In this document: positions 2,260-14,724 of the stretch, one piece after another
Layout of the letters: every line of letters begins with the position of its first letter
Numbering within the stretch: the stretch's first letter is position 1
Translations under genes and position numbers: made by a program
Notes under the pieces: generated by a model
What the model was told of the DNA's origin: nothing
What the model saw: the letters and a program-made list of their open reading frames with translations, nothing else
Database searches by the model: none
Virus record (IMG/VR): IMGVR_UViG_3300036792_000541
Coordinates: 1 to 45,021 of that record
Length of the DNA stretch: 45,021 nucleotides
From: a virus
Strand: one strand, 5' to 3'

Positions 2260-2921
2260 TGTTTTTCACCTTGTTTTGGCGCTGCTGGTAATGGCATCCA
2301 GTGGGTTATCTCCTTGCCTTGCGTCGGAACTCTGGGAAATTCATCGGGATAAAGCACACCACCTTCTACTTCTGCGCAGTAGATAATGCCTCCCTCTTGG
2401 CTCACTAGAACAACGTCTCCGTCTTCAGGCATCCGGTCTTCGCAGGATATCCAACCTTCCGGAGTTTCCGGAGAGCTCAACTTGTAACCCTGGCTTACAG
2501 GTTGAGCCAGCATTGCGGCGCGGCAGGCTGCAATGGCTTCTTTGGCGCGGTTCCATGCGTCATGGTCGCGATCGGAAATGCGGATGACCTCGTCCATTGC
2601 TTCTAACAGCTCGCCGGTCACTACTGATGCTGGTGGGACGAGCGCCTTAATGTGCACGCGGCCACCTATGTAGTGCCAATCAACTTTGCATCCAGTTACT
2701 GATGTGATGCTCTGGCAAATCACCTCAGCGGTTTCTTTGGGTATGGCCACTAGGCACACACTCTTGCCGTTCGCGTAAACCTCTTGGTCGCACTTACTAG
2801 CCACAGGCTGTGCCTCTCGGTTAGCTAGGAGTTCGGCGGCGATTTGTTCAGCCTCACCCCAGCGTAGGCTAGGTGAACTGCGCTCTGCGATTTCGCGTAG
2901 TCTCTCAGTCGTTAGTGCCAT
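2256..2921 (-). CDS. Early-operon protein with C-terminal DUF551 domain
   Basis: A 221-residue soluble protein. Its last about 70 residues, from GWISCEDRMPEDGDVVLV to THWMPLP, are a clear DUF551 domain: a short phage-associated fold that starts with W-I-S/P and ends with HWMPLP. The N-terminal half (MALTTERLREIAE...) resembles the variable N-termini of Ead/Ea22-like phage proteins with an alanine-rich helix. It starts one base inside the upstream stop (TGATG) and overlaps the exonuclease start. No function is established for DUF551 proteins. Confidence 0.8.
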   Translation of the reverse strand: MALTTERLREIAERSSPSLRWGEAEQIAAELLANREAQPVASKCDQEVYANGKSVCLVAIPKETAEVICQSITSVTGCKVDWHYIGGRVHIKALVPPASVVTGELLEAMDEVIRISDRDHDAWNRAKEAIAACRAAMLAQPVSQGYKLSSPETPEGWISCEDRMPEDGDVVLVSQEGGIIYCAEVEGGVLYPDEFPRVPTQGKEITHWMPLPAAPKQGEKQ

Positions 2922-3439
2922 CAGTAGCCCCAGCGGCGAGTAGCCAATCGGATACGTTGATAAATTTCACCAGCATTGCTGCGTTCTTCACCCAGTTCGC
3001 AAGCACAGAAATAGGCATAGGCTGCTTTTTCACATGCTTGATGAGCGTCGATAAATTCCCGCTCCAAAGCTTCAGTGTGGTGCTTTTCAATCAAATTCCG
3101 TAGGGCATCAGGATCATTTTCAACAGGCTGCAGCCAGTAACAGACCGGGCCGTCCTCTGTATCGTGGATCGAAGCGATAAACCATCCATCGCCCGACGGT
3201 GGGGTGGGATTCCACTGGCTAATATCGCCGTCACCGGATTCATAAGCATCGATTTGTTCGGCAGTGGCATGATTTTCCATCCACTGCAGTGCGCCAGTGA
3301 CTCGGTTAGCTTCCTTCCACGCCTCAAACTCACCAGGTGCACCAAATTCCATGCCGTTGGCCGGCACGAAGTAATCAGGATGGGTCCAGTAGCCGTTTTC
3401 ATCGCGCTGCGGTTCAACTGCTGTGATTAACTTGGTCAT
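2921..3439 (-). CDS. Hypothetical phage protein (172 aa)
   Basis: Acidic soluble protein without a recognised catalytic motif. The ATG at 3439 is chosen because AAAGGA lies 7 bases upstream; an upstream in-frame extension (to 3550) has no ribosome site and would overlap the neighbouring small gene entirely. The N-terminus (WTHPDYFVPANGMEFG) and a helical C-terminus rich in Glu, Ala and Cys are the only notable parts. It is coupled on both sides: TCATGA with the upstream 58-codon gene, TGATG with the downstream one. I do not recognise a function. Confidence 0.7.
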   Translation of the reverse strand: MTKLITAVEPQRDENGYWTHPDYFVPANGMEFGAPGEFEAWKEANRVTGALQWMENHATAEQIDAYESGDGDISQWNPTPPSGDGWFIASIHDTEDGPVCYWLQPVENDPDALRNLIEKHHTEALEREFIDAHQACEKAAYAYFCACELGEERSNAGEIYQRIRLATRRWGY

Positions 3440-3612
3440 GATGTTGTGTCCTTTAGCCGGCGGATCCGGCCGTAATATTCGCCTATGTTCCAACAGTGAA
3501 TTTTCATACCAGGTGTTACCTGGTCGGCAAACCGCCGCGGAACGAACCACATGGAGACAGTTTTCTTAACTAAGACGTTGCTCACTATTTGGGTGCTTAT
3601 CCCTTTAGCCAT
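3436..3612 (-). CDS. Small basic phage protein (58 aa)
   Basis: An open frame that begins MAKGISTQIVSN and ends GRIRRLKDTTS. It fills the gap between two coupled genes: its start lies 8 bases after the stop of the zinc-ribbon gene and its stop overlaps the next start. A GAGGGATAGG stretch lies 10-16 bases upstream of the ATG, so the ribosome site is mediocre. The sequence alternates hydrophobic and basic residues in a way that suggests a small beta-rich fold. Function unknown; that it is a gene rests on tight operon packing and plausible composition. Confidence 0.6.
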   Translation of the reverse strand: MAKGISTQIVSNVLVKKTVSMWFVPRRFADQVTPGMKIHCWNIGEYYGRIRRLKDTTS

Positions 3613-4241: not shown

Positions 4242-4423
4242 TTGTCCCCCTGGCGCCGCGCCGGGATTAATCCGTCAACCGGCAGGCATTCATACTGCGG
4301 TGGTAACTGCTGCTGGTGGACATCCGCCAGGCAGTTGCTTTGATCTGGGTACACCCAGCCTTGCGGCACGAATTCGCACGGCTGGTACGTGTAGCAGACG
4401 AGCAGGAACAGGCCGAACATCAC
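4238..4423 (-). CDS. Small DUF1482-like protein
   Basis: A 61-residue protein with a hydrophobic N-terminus (MMFGLFLLVCYTYQPCEFV) and three further Cys/Pro-containing motifs ending in ECLPVDGLIP. This shape matches the DUF1482 family of short prophage proteins: a hydrophobic start, then a YxxxxxCL region. It might be exported or membrane-inserted. Coupled to its neighbours by ATGA overlaps on both sides. Function unknown. Confidence 0.65.
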   Translation of the reverse strand: MMFGLFLLVCYTYQPCEFVPQGWVYPDQSNCLADVHQQQLPPQYECLPVDGLIPARRQGDK

Positions 4424-4953
4424 ACGGTCCTCTCGGCGGTAAGCTGGTGGAAGCGCTGCAGGAACATGGTCCGCGCCTGCACCGGATTTACAGGAGAGAC
4501 GAGAAAGTCTTCAGAAGGGGTGATCCCTTCGAGCATTGGCCACGGTGTGCCGTCGTCAATATCGAGGTCGCGGCGTTCGGTGGCCAGCATCACCAGATCC
4601 GCATTCTTGACTGCTGGGCTATTTGTCGCTGGGAGATTAAATTTATAACGAATAACAAAATCAATATTATTCTCGATGCCACGATAATCAGGAATTAATT
4701 GCTTTAGCGGCGAAGGAATATCTTTGCAATAAGCTTCATGAGCATCATGCAATAACGCTTCAAGTGCGTACTCAGGTGGCACTATCTGGCTAGCAATAAC
4801 ACAGTGCTGAGCCACGCTATAAAATTCAGGGATATGCCCATTAAAACGGCATTCATGCGATAAAGCTTGAGCGATATCTTCAATACAAATATCGTCCACG
4901 GATGGCGCGGCGTAATCAAAACGCTTGCCAGTAAATGTTAGAATCCAAGACAT
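4420..4953 (-). CDS. yfdR: HD-domain phosphohydrolase, YfdR-like
   Basis: A 177-residue HD hydrolase related to 5'-deoxynucleotidases (YfbR-like) and to E. coli YfdR of the CPS-53 prophage. The metal-binding motifs are visible: H33 (SHECRFNGH), H50 (SVAQH), H69-D70 (ALLHDAHEAY) and a later D in KNADLVM. The ATG at 4953 follows GGAGAG; a longer frame to 5001 runs back into the hairpin at 4991-5014 and is not used. Known family members dephosphorylate deoxynucleoside monophosphates, so a role in nucleotide pools during phage growth is plausible. It follows the yfdQ- and yfdP-like genes, as in CPS-53. Confidence 0.88.
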   Translation of the reverse strand: MSWILTFTGKRFDYAAPSVDDICIEDIAQALSHECRFNGHIPEFYSVAQHCVIASQIVPPEYALEALLHDAHEAYCKDIPSPLKQLIPDYRGIENNIDFVIRYKFNLPATNSPAVKNADLVMLATERRDLDIDDGTPWPMLEGITPSEDFLVSPVNPVQARTMFLQRFHQLTAERTV

Positions 4954-4990
4954 AATTTCTCTCCACACGGTTTTTTGGCAACACTTCACC

Positions 4991-5014
4991 AAATACCCCA
5001 TTGCTGGGGTATTT
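4991..5014. repeat. Perfect 9-bp inverted repeat in yfdQ-yfdR gap
   Basis: AAATACCCC and GGGGTATTT form a perfect stem around ATTGCT, downstream of the yfdQ-like stop and 38 bases upstream of the yfdR-like start. No T run follows on the minus strand, so it is better read as an mRNA processing or attenuation hairpin than a terminator. Confidence 0.6.
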
Positions 5015-9849: not shown

Positions 9850-10029
9850 ATGGCGAATTTACTTATACAGGCCGGCTGCCACTACCGCGACCGCAATCAC
9901 GCAGTGGTGCTGGTGCATAGCACTGATCCGGAACGCGAAACGGTTACCTATAGCCCGGTAGGGCAAGAATGGGCGATCACCACAGCGATGATTATTTTCC
10001 GGTCACGATTTATCAGGTTTGACGTATGA
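9850..10029 (+). CDS. DUF4222 family small protein
   Basis: A 59-residue protein, MANLLIQAGCHYRDRNHAVVLV ... TVTYSPVGQEWAITTAMIIFRSRFIRFDV. The opening H-Y-R-D, a V-V-x-V strand, the T-Y-x-P-x-G turn and the closing F-R-x-R-F are the DUF4222 pattern, a common tiny gene ahead of phage replication genes. It starts one base after the antirepressor stop and overlaps the replication gene start as ATGA. Confidence 0.78.
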   Translation: MANLLIQAGCHYRDRNHAVVLVHSTDPERETVTYSPVGQEWAITTAMIIFRSRFIRFDV

Positions 10030-11129
10030 GCAGAATATTTGAAGTTGTTCAGGCTATGTCTGGGCAAGGGAATTGCATCACGATCCCAACGCCTTATCTC
10101 GATTTTGTTTTCGCTGACCCGCAAGCACACCTACTAGGCGCTATTTTGAACCAACTAGTCTTCTGGTCTGGTAAACCGTCGTCTCAGGAAAATGGGTGGT
10201 TCTACAAGACGCACGAAGAGTTAGCTGCGGAGATTCACGGTGTTAAGCCTGATCAGGTTCGCAAGGCCGTAGACAAGCTGATCACCAAGTATTTACCTGG
10301 TGTAATTCAGGAAGCAAAACGCAAAGTCAACGGAACCCCAAAGAAGCACTATCGGGTAGATGGAGATGCATTAATTGCCAAAATATTCCCGCCAGCACTG
10401 GAATCGGCAATATTGCCGAATGGAAACGGCGATATTGCCGAATCAAATCGGCAAAAGAGCCAAATGGAAACGGCAGAATCGCCAGATCTTGGAGATGGCA
10501 ATATTGCCGATTCTTATCTCTATACAGATCAGTACACAGATCAAAACAAACAGATCATAAAACCTGTTGGTCAACTGGCTGAGCCAGCCGACCCGCAAGC
10601 GGATGACTCTCTGAAAATCGACTACCAAGCCGTACTAGACGTATTCCACGCCACGCTACCCACTATGCCAAAGGTTCTCAAAATCACTGATGGCCGCCGG
10701 AAGGTGCTGCGGAAACTCTGGAAGGATTACGACCTGAACCAGGACAAGTGGGGCGCTTACCTGCGTTACATCGCCAAAAAATGCCAGTGGATGCTGGAAG
10801 ACCGGCCAGACACGAATAGCGGCAAGACTTGGCGCAAGAAGGATTTCGACTACCTGATCACCGAGAACTGCTACCTCAAGGTCAAGGAATTTCGTGCTGA
10901 CGATCTGCCCAAGGTCCAGAAATTGGACACCACCGCCCGTGATGATGCCTACCTGCGAATCGTGACCCAGCGCCGTAAGCCACTCAATGAGGTTGAACGG
11001 ATAGCCCAGCAAATGGCCGGCTCCTTGGGGCGTATGACCGACTACGACGCCAGAAAGGCATGGGCAGGGATTTGGGGTAAGGCCGTGGACCAAGCCTGTG
11101 AAAACGATTTGGGGAGATTGGCAGGATGA
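10026..11129 (+). CDS. Replication protein (O-like) carrying the origin
   Basis: A 367-residue protein at the position of lambda O. The N-terminal about 120 residues (HLLGAILNQLVFWSG ... WFYKTHEELAAEIHG-V-PDQVRKAVDKLI) form a winged helix-turn-helix of the phage replication initiator type. A low-complexity linker (about 120-185) is encoded by the iteron array at 10405-10509, as in lambda O. The C-terminal half is helical and could recruit host replication proteins. No helicase or primase motif is present, so host DnaB is presumably used. Starts by ATGA overlap. Confidence 0.85.
   Translation: MSRIFEVVQAMSGQGNCITIPTPYLDFVFADPQAHLLGAILNQLVFWSGKPSSQENGWFYKTHEELAAEIHGVKPDQVRKAVDKLITKYLPGVIQEAKRKVNGTPKKHYRVDGDALIAKIFPPALESAILPNGNGDIAESNRQKSQMETAESPDLGDGNIADSYLYTDQYTDQNKQIIKPVGQLAEPADPQADDSLKIDYQAVLDVFHATLPTMPKVLKITDGRRKVLRKLWKDYDLNQDKWGAYLRYIAKKCQWMLEDRPDTNSGKTWRKKDFDYLITENCYLKVKEFRADDLPKVQKLDTTARDDAYLRIVTQRRKPLNEVERIAQQMAGSLGRMTDYDARKAWAGIWGKAVDQACENDLGRLAG
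10405..10509. repeat. 22-bp iterons: probable replication origin
   Basis: Copies of CGGCAATATTGCCG-like palindromes begin at 10405 (perfect), 10427 (one mismatch: CGGCGATATTGCCG), 10449 (CGGCAAAAGAGCC) and 10471 (CGGCAGAATCGCC), exactly 22 bp apart. A perfect GGCAATATTGCC copy follows at 10497. The stretch from 10509 to about 10565 is AT-rich. Four iterons plus an AT-rich flank inside the initiator gene is the lambda ori arrangement; 22 bp is not a multiple of 3, so the period is a DNA-level signal, not peptide repetition. Confidence 0.85.
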
Positions 11130-11368
11130 AACCAGCAACGCATCAAATTTTAGGTGTCACCGTATTCCCGCTGGTGGCCATGCTGCAACAGGTTCGCCGC
11201 TGGTGGTCGCTTCGCTACTTGCGCGGGTATTGGGCTGATGATCAGGATCTACGCCGTATCGCCCGGGAACGCAACTGGGTGCGCGTCCTGACCCAATTCA
11301 ACATCGAGGCGCGTTATCGCTTCATCAAGCTGCTGGCCACCGCTGAACAGCAAAGGGGGATCCTGTGA
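11126..11368 (+). CDS. Small basic protein downstream of replication gene
   Basis: An 80-residue, Trp/Arg-rich protein (QQVRRWWSLRYLRGYWADDQDLRRIARERNWVRVL). It sits where lambda has gene P but is far too short to be a P-like helicase loader. Start overlaps the replication gene stop (ATGA); stop overlaps the next start (TGATG). I do not recognise the family. Confidence 0.65.
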   Translation: MKPATHQILGVTVFPLVAMLQQVRRWWSLRYLRGYWADDQDLRRIARERNWVRVLTQFNIEARYRFIKLLATAEQQRGIL

Positions 11369-12930
11369 TGGTTCAAGTTGTCAGTTTCTCTGGAGGCCGT
11401 ACATCAGCCTACCTGGTGCATTTGATGGAACAGCGCCGTGCTGCTGGTGAGGATGTGCGTTACATATTCACGGACACCGGCGCTGAGCACCCCAAAACGT
11501 ATGAGTTTATCCGCAATGTGGTAGCTCACTGGAACATAGACCTGATTTGCCTACGGCTGGTCGTAAATCCGAAATTAGGGGAGGGGAATAGCTATCGAGT
11601 CGTTGGCGTTAACGAGATTGGACCCGATTTGGAGCCATTCAGAGCTGCATTGTCGAAATATGGCACGCCGTATGTTGGTGGCCGTTTCTGCACTCGTACG
11701 ATGAAGATCGAACCATTTCATCGCTATTGCAAAGACCACTTTCCTCATTCGGAAAAATGGTTAGGAATTCGCACCGATGAGCCAAAACGGTTATCCCCGA
11801 AACCGAAGACGCATTATCTCGCTGACATAAGTGACATGGAAAAGAAAGACATCATCAACTGGTGGAGTCAGCAACCATTCGATCTGGACTTACCTGAACA
11901 CCTGGGAAACTGCGTTTTCTGCATTGAAAAGGGCATCAACAAAATAGCTCTCGCCGCTCGTGATGAGCCACAAATGGCCGCTGAATTCTGGGAGTTGGTA
12001 AACGAACCCGGCGTCAGAGTCGTGGAACGTAGCCAACAGGAAAACAAGATCATGTATCGGGGTAATAACTCTCTGGAGAGCGTCATTGCTCTGTTTTCTG
12101 ACCATTCTCGGGAAGAGATCGCGGCAACTATTCGTGGCGGTGGTGGCTATAATTCGGGTGCATGTACTGAGTCCTGTGAGCCATTTAGCTGCAACATCGA
12201 AGATGATCCGATCGAAGATGAAATCGATGCCCCGGCAGTTAGCGTTTATTGTTCAAAACTCACTGAGTTACGCGAAAGGCCAAGTCATCTGCTAAAAGAG
12301 GTGGGCGATCAGTGGCGGACGCCTGATGCGCTTTTCTGGGGTATCAATGCGATGTTTGGCCCGCTGGTGTTGGATCTGTTCACTGACGGCGATAACAGCA
12401 AATGCCCAGCATTCTACACGGCAGAAGACAACGCCCTTACCCAGGACTGGTCTGCTCGGCTGGTGGAACTGCACGGTGCTGCTTTCGGAAATCCTCCATA
12501 CTCCCGCGCTCAGCAGCATGAGGGGCAATACGTCACCGGTATGCTGCACATCATGACCCACACTATGGCGATGCGGGAGCGCGGCGGCCGGTATGTTTTC
12601 CTGATTAAAGCTGCGACCTCTGAGACGTGGTGGCCTGAGCAGGCCGATCATGTTGCTTTCATCCGCGGACGTGTTGGGTTCGATGTGCCGAAATGGTTTG
12701 TGCCAGCTGATGAAAAACAGGTACCCACTGGTGCATTCTTTGCCGGTGCTGTGGTGATCTTCGATAAGACGTGGCGTGGGCCTGCAATGAGTTATGTCAG
12801 CCGTACGCAGTTGGAATCCATGGGGGAGGCGTTCATAGCGCAAATCCGCCGGGAGGCCGAGCGTCTGCTACCACAAATCCAACCGCAAATTATTCCGGAA
12901 AATAATCCAGGGCGTGAGGTGGCTGTATGA
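11368..12930 (+). CDS. PAPS-reductase-like / DNA adenine methyltransferase fusion
   Basis: A 520-residue two-domain protein. Residues 1-about 280 are a PP-loop ATP-pyrophosphatase-type domain of the phosphoadenosine phosphosulfate reductase family: the loop is FSGGRTSA (7-14), followed by FTDTGAEHPKTYEF. Candidate metal or Fe-S cysteines are C108, C182/C185 (NCVFC) and C266, C270, C275. Residues about 313-480 are a phage Dam-type N6-adenine methyltransferase (GDQWRTPDALFWGINAMFG, D336 in LDLF, NPPY at 375-378). The frame is continuous, so this is a real fusion. ATG at 11368 follows GGGGGA; a GTG lies one codon earlier. Coupled to the DpdA-like gene by ATGA. The adenine specificity is a family inference; the substrate of the first domain is unknown. 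Confidence 0.88.
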   Translation: MVQVVSFSGGRTSAYLVHLMEQRRAAGEDVRYIFTDTGAEHPKTYEFIRNVVAHWNIDLICLRLVVNPKLGEGNSYRVVGVNEIGPDLEPFRAALSKYGTPYVGGRFCTRTMKIEPFHRYCKDHFPHSEKWLGIRTDEPKRLSPKPKTHYLADISDMEKKDIINWWSQQPFDLDLPEHLGNCVFCIEKGINKIALAARDEPQMAAEFWELVNEPGVRVVERSQQENKIMYRGNNSLESVIALFSDHSREEIAATIRGGGGYNSGACTESCEPFSCNIEDDPIEDEIDAPAVSVYCSKLTELRERPSHLLKEVGDQWRTPDALFWGINAMFGPLVLDLFTDGDNSKCPAFYTAEDNALTQDWSARLVELHGAAFGNPPYSRAQQHEGQYVTGMLHIMTHTMAMRERGGRYVFLIKAATSETWWPEQADHVAFIRGRVGFDVPKWFVPADEKQVPTGAFFAGAVVIFDKTWRGPAMSYVSRTQLESMGEAFIAQIRREAERLLPQIQPQIIPENNPGREVAV

Positions 12931-13682
12931 TCCACTATCATGGCGGCCCTATAACCCCCGACACCTGCGCAATGAAAGCCTGGTCAGCTGGGCATGCGTT
13001 TATCTCTTTTGCTAATTCCAGTCAGATCGGCTTGGCTTCAGAGATCTGTCAGTCATTCGCATTAGACAATGGTGCATTCTCAATCTGGAAAAAAGCCGGG
13101 AAAAACAAAATCGACTGGACTGATTATTACTCGTGGGTGGAATGCTGGAAAAACCACCCTGGCCTAGATTTTGCCATCATCCCTGACGTGATCGACGGCG
13201 GTGCAGCGGAAAATGACGCATTGCTTGCTGAATGGCCACATGGCAAGTTTGCTGGTTGCCCTGTGTGGCACATGAACGAAAGCGAAGACAGATTCATTCG
13301 GCTTTGCCATGAATACCCACGCGTTGCGATCGGTAGTTGTGGTGAGTATGACGTGAAATCTCCTCTGAAAGCCGTGGCACGCATGAAGGACATCATCCGG
13401 CACGTTGTTGATGCTCAGAACCGACCAATCACAAAACTCCATGGTCTACGAATGCTGAATAAAGACATCTTTACCCGTCTGCCGCTGGCCAGCGCCGATA
13501 GCACCAACGTTGCCCGCAATATCGGAATCGATAGTGCATGGAAAGGTACATATTCACCTCAATCAAAGGAAACCCGCGCATACGTTCTTGCAGAGCGCAT
13601 TGAGGCTTTCAATAGTACCGGCATGCTCGAATATTGCGAAATAAGTGACCGGTTCAACATGCAACTGCAGATGGAGGTCTAA
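12927..13682 (+). CDS. DpdA-like protein (TGT-fold, putative DNA guanine modification)
   Basis: A 251-residue protein with the sequence landmarks of the DpdA/tRNA-guanine-transglycosylase fold: ALDNGAFS (45-52, D47), IIPDVIDGG (84-92), PVWHMNESEDRF (112-123), VAIGSCGEY (133-141), KLHGLRML (170-177) and ASADS (188-192, D191). In TGT enzymes two aspartates in equivalent places do the base exchange; DpdA homologues insert a 7-deazaguanine into DNA. The protein is short, as phage DpdA-type proteins often are. No queuosine precursor genes (folE, queD, queE, queC) are in the window, so precursor would come from the host. Family membership is from pattern memory, not a search. Confidence 0.75.
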   Translation: MIHYHGGPITPDTCAMKAWSAGHAFISFANSSQIGLASEICQSFALDNGAFSIWKKAGKNKIDWTDYYSWVECWKNHPGLDFAIIPDVIDGGAAENDALLAEWPHGKFAGCPVWHMNESEDRFIRLCHEYPRVAIGSCGEYDVKSPLKAVARMKDIIRHVVDAQNRPITKLHGLRMLNKDIFTRLPLASADSTNVARNIGIDSAWKGTYSPQSKETRAYVLAERIEAFNSTGMLEYCEISDRFNMQLQMEV

Positions 13683-13683
13683 T

Positions 13684-14724
13684 GTGAGAATGCTACTTAC
13701 TTCTTACCTGCAGCGTGAACTGGGTGTGGTGCTGCTGCGACCGGGTAGCGACTTGCTGCATTATTTCAGTGGCCGTACGCGGTTACTGATCGCCAACGAA
13801 CCTGACGAGTTAAAACCATTGCCGTCCGGCCTACTGCCAGCAGTAGATCAGAGTCTGGCAGTTGACCCTCGATTGTCATCATTCTTCCAGCATGAACGGG
13901 TCATTGATGCTGCTGGTGGTATTGCAGGCCTGAAGGAGTGGGTGTTGCGTGGCACCGGCTGTCAGTGGACTGACGACAGCGATGACTATCACCACCACAA
14001 TATTGACGCGCTGGATTATGGCGGTCGCCCGATCCGCATGTGCTGGCACCATGAGCACAGCCTGCGGGAACAAACCCTCCCCGAGTTGGATGCCCTGGCT
14101 GCGCAGAACGTGGCGGAGTGGGTGGTATATCGCGCCCGCTTGCATTTCATGTTTGGTGAAGCCCACCAGTTGAGCCTGCCGGAGTTGTGCTGGTGGGCCG
14201 TACTGAAAGAGGTATCCGATTTATTGCCTGATGCGGTTGCTCGTTTCTCCCTGCGCCTTCCACCAGCCACCATCCCAACGGGAACGCGGAAAGAGGCGGA
14301 TATTATTTGGGAGAGGGCCCCACAGACGATCATTAACGAGTACGTGGAGAAGGTTAAACCGGCATTGACCGTTGATGTCGACCCCGAGCCACCAGCTGGT
14401 TTTATGCTGCGGCCGAAGCTGACCCGCTGGGAGTGCGAGAAATACACCCAGTGGGTGAAGTCGCAGAAATGCTGCTGCGGTTGCAACCGACCGGCAGACG
14501 ACCCACACCACATCATTGATCACGGGCTCGGCGGTACAGGCACCAAACCGCATGACATCTTCACTATCCCTCTGACCAGAGAATGCCATGACAAGCTACA
14601 TGAGGATGTAGCTGCATGGGAAGCCACTCACGGCAGCCAGTTATTCCACCTGGTACGCACGCTGAACAAGGCATTTGGGATTGGGGCGATCAGCACGGCA
14701 AACAAACGCGGGGAAAAGCGATGA
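13684..14724 (+). CDS. DUF968 protein, HNH-like C-terminus
   Basis: A 346-residue protein of the DUF968 phage family. The GTG at 13684 is chosen because GGAGG lies 6 bases upstream and the resulting start RMLLTSYLQRELGVVLLRPGSDLL matches the family N-terminus. The C-terminal part has a Cys/His cluster, KCCCGCNRPADDPHHIIDHG followed by ECHDKLHED, that looks like a zinc-stabilised HNH nuclease site. It probably acts on DNA during recombination or replication, but no activity is established. It lies where lambda has the nin genes and is coupled to Q by ATGA. Confidence 0.85.
   Translation: MRMLLTSYLQRELGVVLLRPGSDLLHYFSGRTRLLIANEPDELKPLPSGLLPAVDQSLAVDPRLSSFFQHERVIDAAGGIAGLKEWVLRGTGCQWTDDSDDYHHHNIDALDYGGRPIRMCWHHEHSLREQTLPELDALAAQNVAEWVVYRARLHFMFGEAHQLSLPELCWWAVLKEVSDLLPDAVARFSLRLPPATIPTGTRKEADIIWERAPQTIINEYVEKVKPALTVDVDPEPPAGFMLRPKLTRWECEKYTQWVKSQKCCCGCNRPADDPHHIIDHGLGGTGTKPHDIFTIPLTRECHDKLHEDVAAWEATHGSQLFHLVRTLNKAFGIGAISTANKRGEKR

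Follow-up and report, generated by a model that had tools for sequence, protein, structure and literature searches.

The NinC-Dam fusion gene and the DpdA-like gene that overlap in this virus are probably two independent phage genes lying side by side, not the parts of one pathway. Their neighbourhood most likely arose by chance, through mosaic exchange between known kinds of gene. A preliminary description of the locus had proposed a hypermodification cassette of three cooperating activities. We rejected this proposal because a near-sister phage has the same genes around an empty site, and because the linkage expected of a cassette is absent among the relatives. The window, i.e., the whole stretch of DNA that was analysed, comprises the 45,021 bases of an IMG/VR virus record. 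It encodes recognisable integrase, exonuclease, CII-like and O-like genes, and the Q antiterminator.

Organisation of the locus

Both reading frames are present, with the ATGA overlap originally described. On their left is the replication O-like gene (10026-11129), and on their right are the DUF968/HNH and Q genes. The fusion is directly preceded by orf80 (11126-11368, plus strand, PHROG 19767), its usual upstream neighbour, which is found at the same place in the loci L093, L094, L095, and L107-L109. The fusion starts at GTG 11365 or, more likely, at ATG 11368 and ends at 12930. Its NinC domain spans positions 11368-12234 and its Dam domain positions 12246-12930 (both plus strand). The DpdA-like frame (12927-13682, plus strand, 251 aa) opens within the ATGA shared with the end of the fusion and, judging by position, the two genes would be co-transcribed. 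They are followed by the DUF968/HNH gene (13684-14724, plus strand, PF06147). The start of the latter is probably GTG 13684 rather than 13645, since the homologue in phage L093 begins at the corresponding GTGAGGATG. The left arm of the window encodes a deoxyribonucleoside 5'-monophosphate phosphatase (4423-5001, PHROG 318). Escherichia phage Eeyore has a gene with this annotation ~0.9 kb upstream of its DpdA-like gene.

The first gene joins NinC to a Dam methyltransferase

The preliminary description recognised in the first gene a PAPS-reductase-like PP-loop domain and a DNA adenine methyltransferase, and the protein profiles agree. Residues 5-166 match PF01507 (PAPS_reduct, E=6e-10, above the cut-off) and residues 307-488 match PF05869 (Dam, E=5e-43, 147 bits for a cut-off of 28.1). 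The Dam part also scores 203 bits with TIGR01712 (cut-off 97) and includes the NPPY motif (FGNPPYSR). It probably places m6A in the phage DNA. Over its full length the protein matches PHROG 33262 (E=1e-242), a NinC-Dam fusion of identical architecture, of which the window gene is a plain member. Among the fetched loci we found 41 ORFs encoding such fusions, 15 of them distinct at 90% identity.

The PP-loop domain (SFSGGRTS) is the NinC of phage lambda, to which it is 49% identical over 285 aa. The two are orthologous domains encoded in the nin region, between the replication genes and Q, but NinC stands alone in lambda whereas it is joined to Dam in the window. We read the first gene as ninC, from the nin region of lambda, joined in one frame with a phage Dam methyltransferase. 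To our knowledge, lambda NinC has no assigned function. NinC domains share 35 invariant residues down to 26% identity, including SFSGGR.S, Cys109, Cys183, and Cys186. Lambda NinC has been reported to be non-essential (PMC10695390).

The AlphaFold (AF2) model of the domain is nearest to CysH (6vpu), followed by other PP-loop enzymes that include the sulphurtransferases LarE and TtuA. Despite this CysH-like fold, we discarded a true CysH PAPS reductase, as the domain scores 22.8 bits against an NCBIfam equivalog cut-off of 154. QueC was also rejected, the domain being assigned to NinC. The phosphorothioation proteins DndC, SspD, and BrxP resemble it in having a PAPS-reductase-like PP-loop with conserved cysteines, but the similarity covers only part of the length (E=7e-16 with the PADLOC profile of SspD). 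No partner gene of the SspD or DndC systems was recognised among the window genes that were profiled, and a complete Dnd or Ssp system was set aside on this basis.

The second gene is a relative of DpdA

The second gene encodes a putative DpdA-like DNA transglycosylase of the TGT superfamily, matched by PHROG 887 ("queuine tRNA-ribosyltransferase", E=2e-92). The ORF is not a chance one, since many phages carry full-length relatives with 66-95% identity. The fetched loci include 149 close relatives (at least 60% identity), of which 32 are distinct at 90%, and a further 122 that are more distant; a scan of genome contigs returned just three close relatives. The protein shares 40% identity over 200 aa with the DpdA of Pantoea phage MED16 and 32% identity with a protein of phage 7-11. 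In an alignment of 66 sequences reaching down to ~31% identity, residues D47, G49, P86, D87, H115, G136, H172, R175, and D191 are invariant. Among these, the TGT-type aspartates D47 and D191 and the DpdA histidine H172 are collinear with D69, D212, and H193 of the DpdA of Iggy, itself 72% identical to that of CAjan. The active-site residues are intact, and the original assignment of the gene to the DpdA/TGT type stands.

The preliminary description had also suggested profile and fold searches. In profile comparisons, Iggy DpdA was matched with 97-98% probability (98% for a family profile of 14 sequences). The DpdA-like protein has no match in Pfam or NCBIfam, including PF01702, and Pfam scans of its relatives were equally empty. 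Comparison of its profile with 22 bacterial TGTs by hhalign gave a probability of 0.2%, but this comparison has little power because the accepted DpdA of Iggy fails likewise. On the absence of a Pfam match and this low-power test, we did not class the protein among the bacterial tRNA-guanine transglycosylases (PF01702). The AlphaFold model (pLDDT 87) shows alternating strands and helices that fit a TIM barrel. In BFVD, every functionally named match with E≤1e-3 was a phage queuine/queuosine tRNA-ribosyltransferase. In the PDB, however, generic TIM barrels such as TrpA ranked above TGT, a search that does not separate TIM barrels from one another. The single-sequence PDB search gave no match, and a search with the 14-sequence profile gave only chance matches.

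The protein belongs to the published "DpdA-only" group of phages (Salmonella phages 7-11, SEN1, and SW9; Pantoea phage MED16), which have a lone TGT-like gene and lack preQ0 synthesis genes. The DpdA of MED16 has the same invariant residues, and the group, like the window phage, is gamma-proteobacterial. The window gene differs from this group by its position in a lambdoid replication region beside NinC-Dam. The DpdA of the CAjan/9g/Iggy type has collinear motifs (DSGAF/DNGAF, HGxx, CDSS/ADST). Yet, these phages encode FolE-QueD-QueE-QueC, whereas the window has no synthesis genes; its protein is also ~60 aa shorter and similar to theirs at the profile level only. One record with a DpdA-like gene 76% identical to the enterobacterial one of the window is named Staphylococcus phage SA 1298 Kay (OR850331.1), a name that may be wrong. 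The same may be true of the name of Campylobacter phage CJLB-4 (MW057783.1), where NinC is encoded beside a recombination gene.

Source of the precursor and expected modification

Using phage profiles, we found no homologues of QueC, QueD, QueE, FolE, or YhhQ in the window. This agrees with the first reading of the locus, in which 7-deazaguanine synthesis genes were absent. The enzyme would depend on host precursors, as that reading proposed. Relatives fall in Enterobacterales. A total of 76 phages with DpdA and without synthesis genes were previously grouped, and their use of host preQ0 was suggested (PMC6884629). YhhQ is a preQ0 transporter (PMC6884629). In 63 loci, 39 of them distinct (e.g., L005:4720-5193, L181:3178-3705, and among L275-L354), a homologue of YhhQ/Vut_1 is encoded no more than 1 kb from the DpdA-like gene. 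Pfam confirmed Vut_1 (PF02592) beside the DpdA-like gene of Acinetobacter phage AB3P2. This sample is biased: a single rhizobial phage query fetched 80 loci, and 60 of the 63 are among them (36 of 50 when distinct loci are counted). No YhhQ occurs near the DpdA-like gene in the 149 close loci, and the association mainly concerns one distant branch and AB3P2. The adjacency in distant relatives supports a host-derived 7-deazaguanine substrate. A few distant relatives adjoin QueC, QueD, QueE, or FolE.

LC-MS measurements have been published for the DNA of phages CAjan, 7-11, and MED16. The DNA of CAjan contains dPreQ0, which disappears when dpdA is deleted, and that of phage 7-11 contains traces of dADG (PMC6884629). 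MED16 DNA has dADG at ~0.13% of G and trace dPreQ0, and is still cleaved by most of the restriction enzymes tested (PMC8306585). We infer that the enzyme of the window most likely swaps some guanines of the DNA for a host-made 7-deazaguanine of the preQ0 class. The exchange would follow TGT-type chemistry, with two invariant aspartates, and would leave sparse dPreQ0 or dADG. The preliminary description had suggested, as one option, a complex modification that defeats restriction. This is doubtful: strong restriction escape by the window phage is unlikely, given how little dADG its best-studied relative, MED16, has and how readily the DNA of that phage is cut.

An empty site and independent distributions

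The strongest evidence against a single cassette is the empty site of L093. In this near-sister phage the genes follow one another as in the window (repressor, Cro, CII, antirepressor, orf80, NinC-Dam, DUF968, Q), with 79-99% protein identity, but the DpdA-like gene is missing. Its fusion terminates in GCGTGA, of which GTGA opens DUF968. At this site the window has 758 extra bases (12926-13683) and L093 a single C. The flanks of the segment are 90% identical over 220 nt on the left and 87% identical over 100 nt on the right. Since the fusion of L093 abuts the next gene, the DpdA-like gene is a cargo insertion of 758 bp. It would be mobile cargo that entered exactly at the junction of NinC-Dam and the DUF968/HNH gene. 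DpdA-like genes occupy other slots elsewhere: beside ea22 (BTP1), near int (HK106, Eeyore), and beside a replication gene (SEN1). Phage L017, which is close to the window phage in its regulatory genes, encodes Dam without NinC and has its DpdA-like gene at another location. In Pantoea phage AH07 (L001:2682-4756), a ParB-like gene takes the operon position of NinC-Dam and overlaps the DpdA-like gene by ATGA.

A survey of co-occurrence, also suggested at the outset, spoke against the cassette. No NinC occurs up to 4 kb from the DpdA-like gene in any of the 149 close loci. It was also missing from the 50 whole records bearing a DpdA-like gene, although the same query recovers lambda NinC (positive control). 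Reciprocally, apart from the window, no DpdA-like gene was found within ~5 kb of the 41 fusion ORFs. Whole records with the fusion or NinC numbered 38; a DpdA-like gene turned up in one of them, unlinked, ~9 kb away and on the other strand. This record, L096 (DpdA-like frame at 2716-3468, minus strand), is the only one besides the window with both NinC-Dam and a DpdA-like gene, and the search reported one in-frame TGA in its DpdA-like frame. In the preliminary description, the three-part combination was not known from a lambda-type prophage. Parts of it are known: the NinC-Dam fusion is recurrent (PHROG 33262) and the pairing of DpdA with a Dam gene was already published for MED16 (PMC8306585). 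We found no other linked pair of NinC-Dam and DpdA-like genes in the loci surveyed.

Alternative explanations

Could the three activities still make one complex modification that protects the DNA from restriction? The ATGA coupling and the common operon position suit this reading. In five distant distinct loci (L275, L292, L304, L320, L340), a PAPS-reductase-like gene of the PP-loop family occurs up to 4 kb from the DpdA-like gene. Of the 32 close distinct loci, 5 have a Dam gene no more than 300 bp away; both figures are raw counts. There may be a weak functional link of these genes with DpdA. Yet, the empty site and the missing or unlinked partners in the survey argue against cooperation, as does the frequent occurrence of NinC without a methyltransferase or DpdA, e.g., in lambda. 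We consider a single cassette very unlikely and retain the chance neighbourhood of two independent genes.

The DpdA-like protein might modify host tRNA by a queuosine-type exchange, and not DNA. It belongs to the TGT superfamily, and public annotations call it a queuine tRNA-ribosyltransferase, but it does not match PF01702, lacks the cysteine cluster of the zinc site, and at 251 aa is too short to hold the C-terminal part of TGT. Moreover, its homologue in MED16 goes with dADG in DNA (PMC8306585), and the family sits in DNA-metabolism regions of phages. A tRNA target is thus unlikely, if less so than the cassette. The least probable of these readings, to which we give hardly any weight, is a degenerate or regulatory TIM-barrel protein devoid of exchange activity. 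The small size of the protein and the lack of a curated Pfam family would fit it. So would the DNA of Orion, another DpdA-only phage, which is unmodified, although the host of Orion has no preQ0 synthesis (PMC6884629). Against it stands the invariance of D47, D87, H115, H172, and D191 across the 66 aligned relatives, which argues that catalytic selection continues. We therefore keep an active exchange enzyme acting on DNA as the preferred reading of the second gene.

NinC is fused to unrelated methyltransferases

NinC has in-frame partners from three unrelated methyltransferase families. PF05869 (Dam) is the partner in the window and in 14 other distinct ORFs, and PF02086 (D12 adenine methyltransferase) in L129, L130, and L136-L139. 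PF00145 (C5 methyltransferase) lies at the N-terminus of NinC in L105 and L129; an internal start before NinC is possible in L105. The triple fusions reach 1099 aa for C5-NinC-D12 (L129) and 968 aa for C5-NinC-Dam (L105). Such a diversity of partners suggests that NinC, an old nin gene, acts with DNA methylation. Our paper searches, in a literature covered incompletely, found no description of NinC-methyltransferase fusions. As a tentative and rather improbable reading, NinC may be a PP-loop enzyme, possibly of the iron-sulphur kind in view of its three invariant cysteines, that cooperates with the methyltransferases in acting on phage DNA. It would perhaps add a further, so far undescribed chemical step, or tie methylation to ATP or sulphur chemistry, and the DpdA-like gene would form a separate layer with no relation to it.

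Stand-alone DpdA-like genes are widespread in phages, and one of their branches adjoins a transporter of preQ0/queuosine precursors, in support of a DNA modification with 7-deazaguanine salvaged from the host. The fusions of NinC with methyltransferases, more interesting than the cassette itself, make the function of NinC directly testable.
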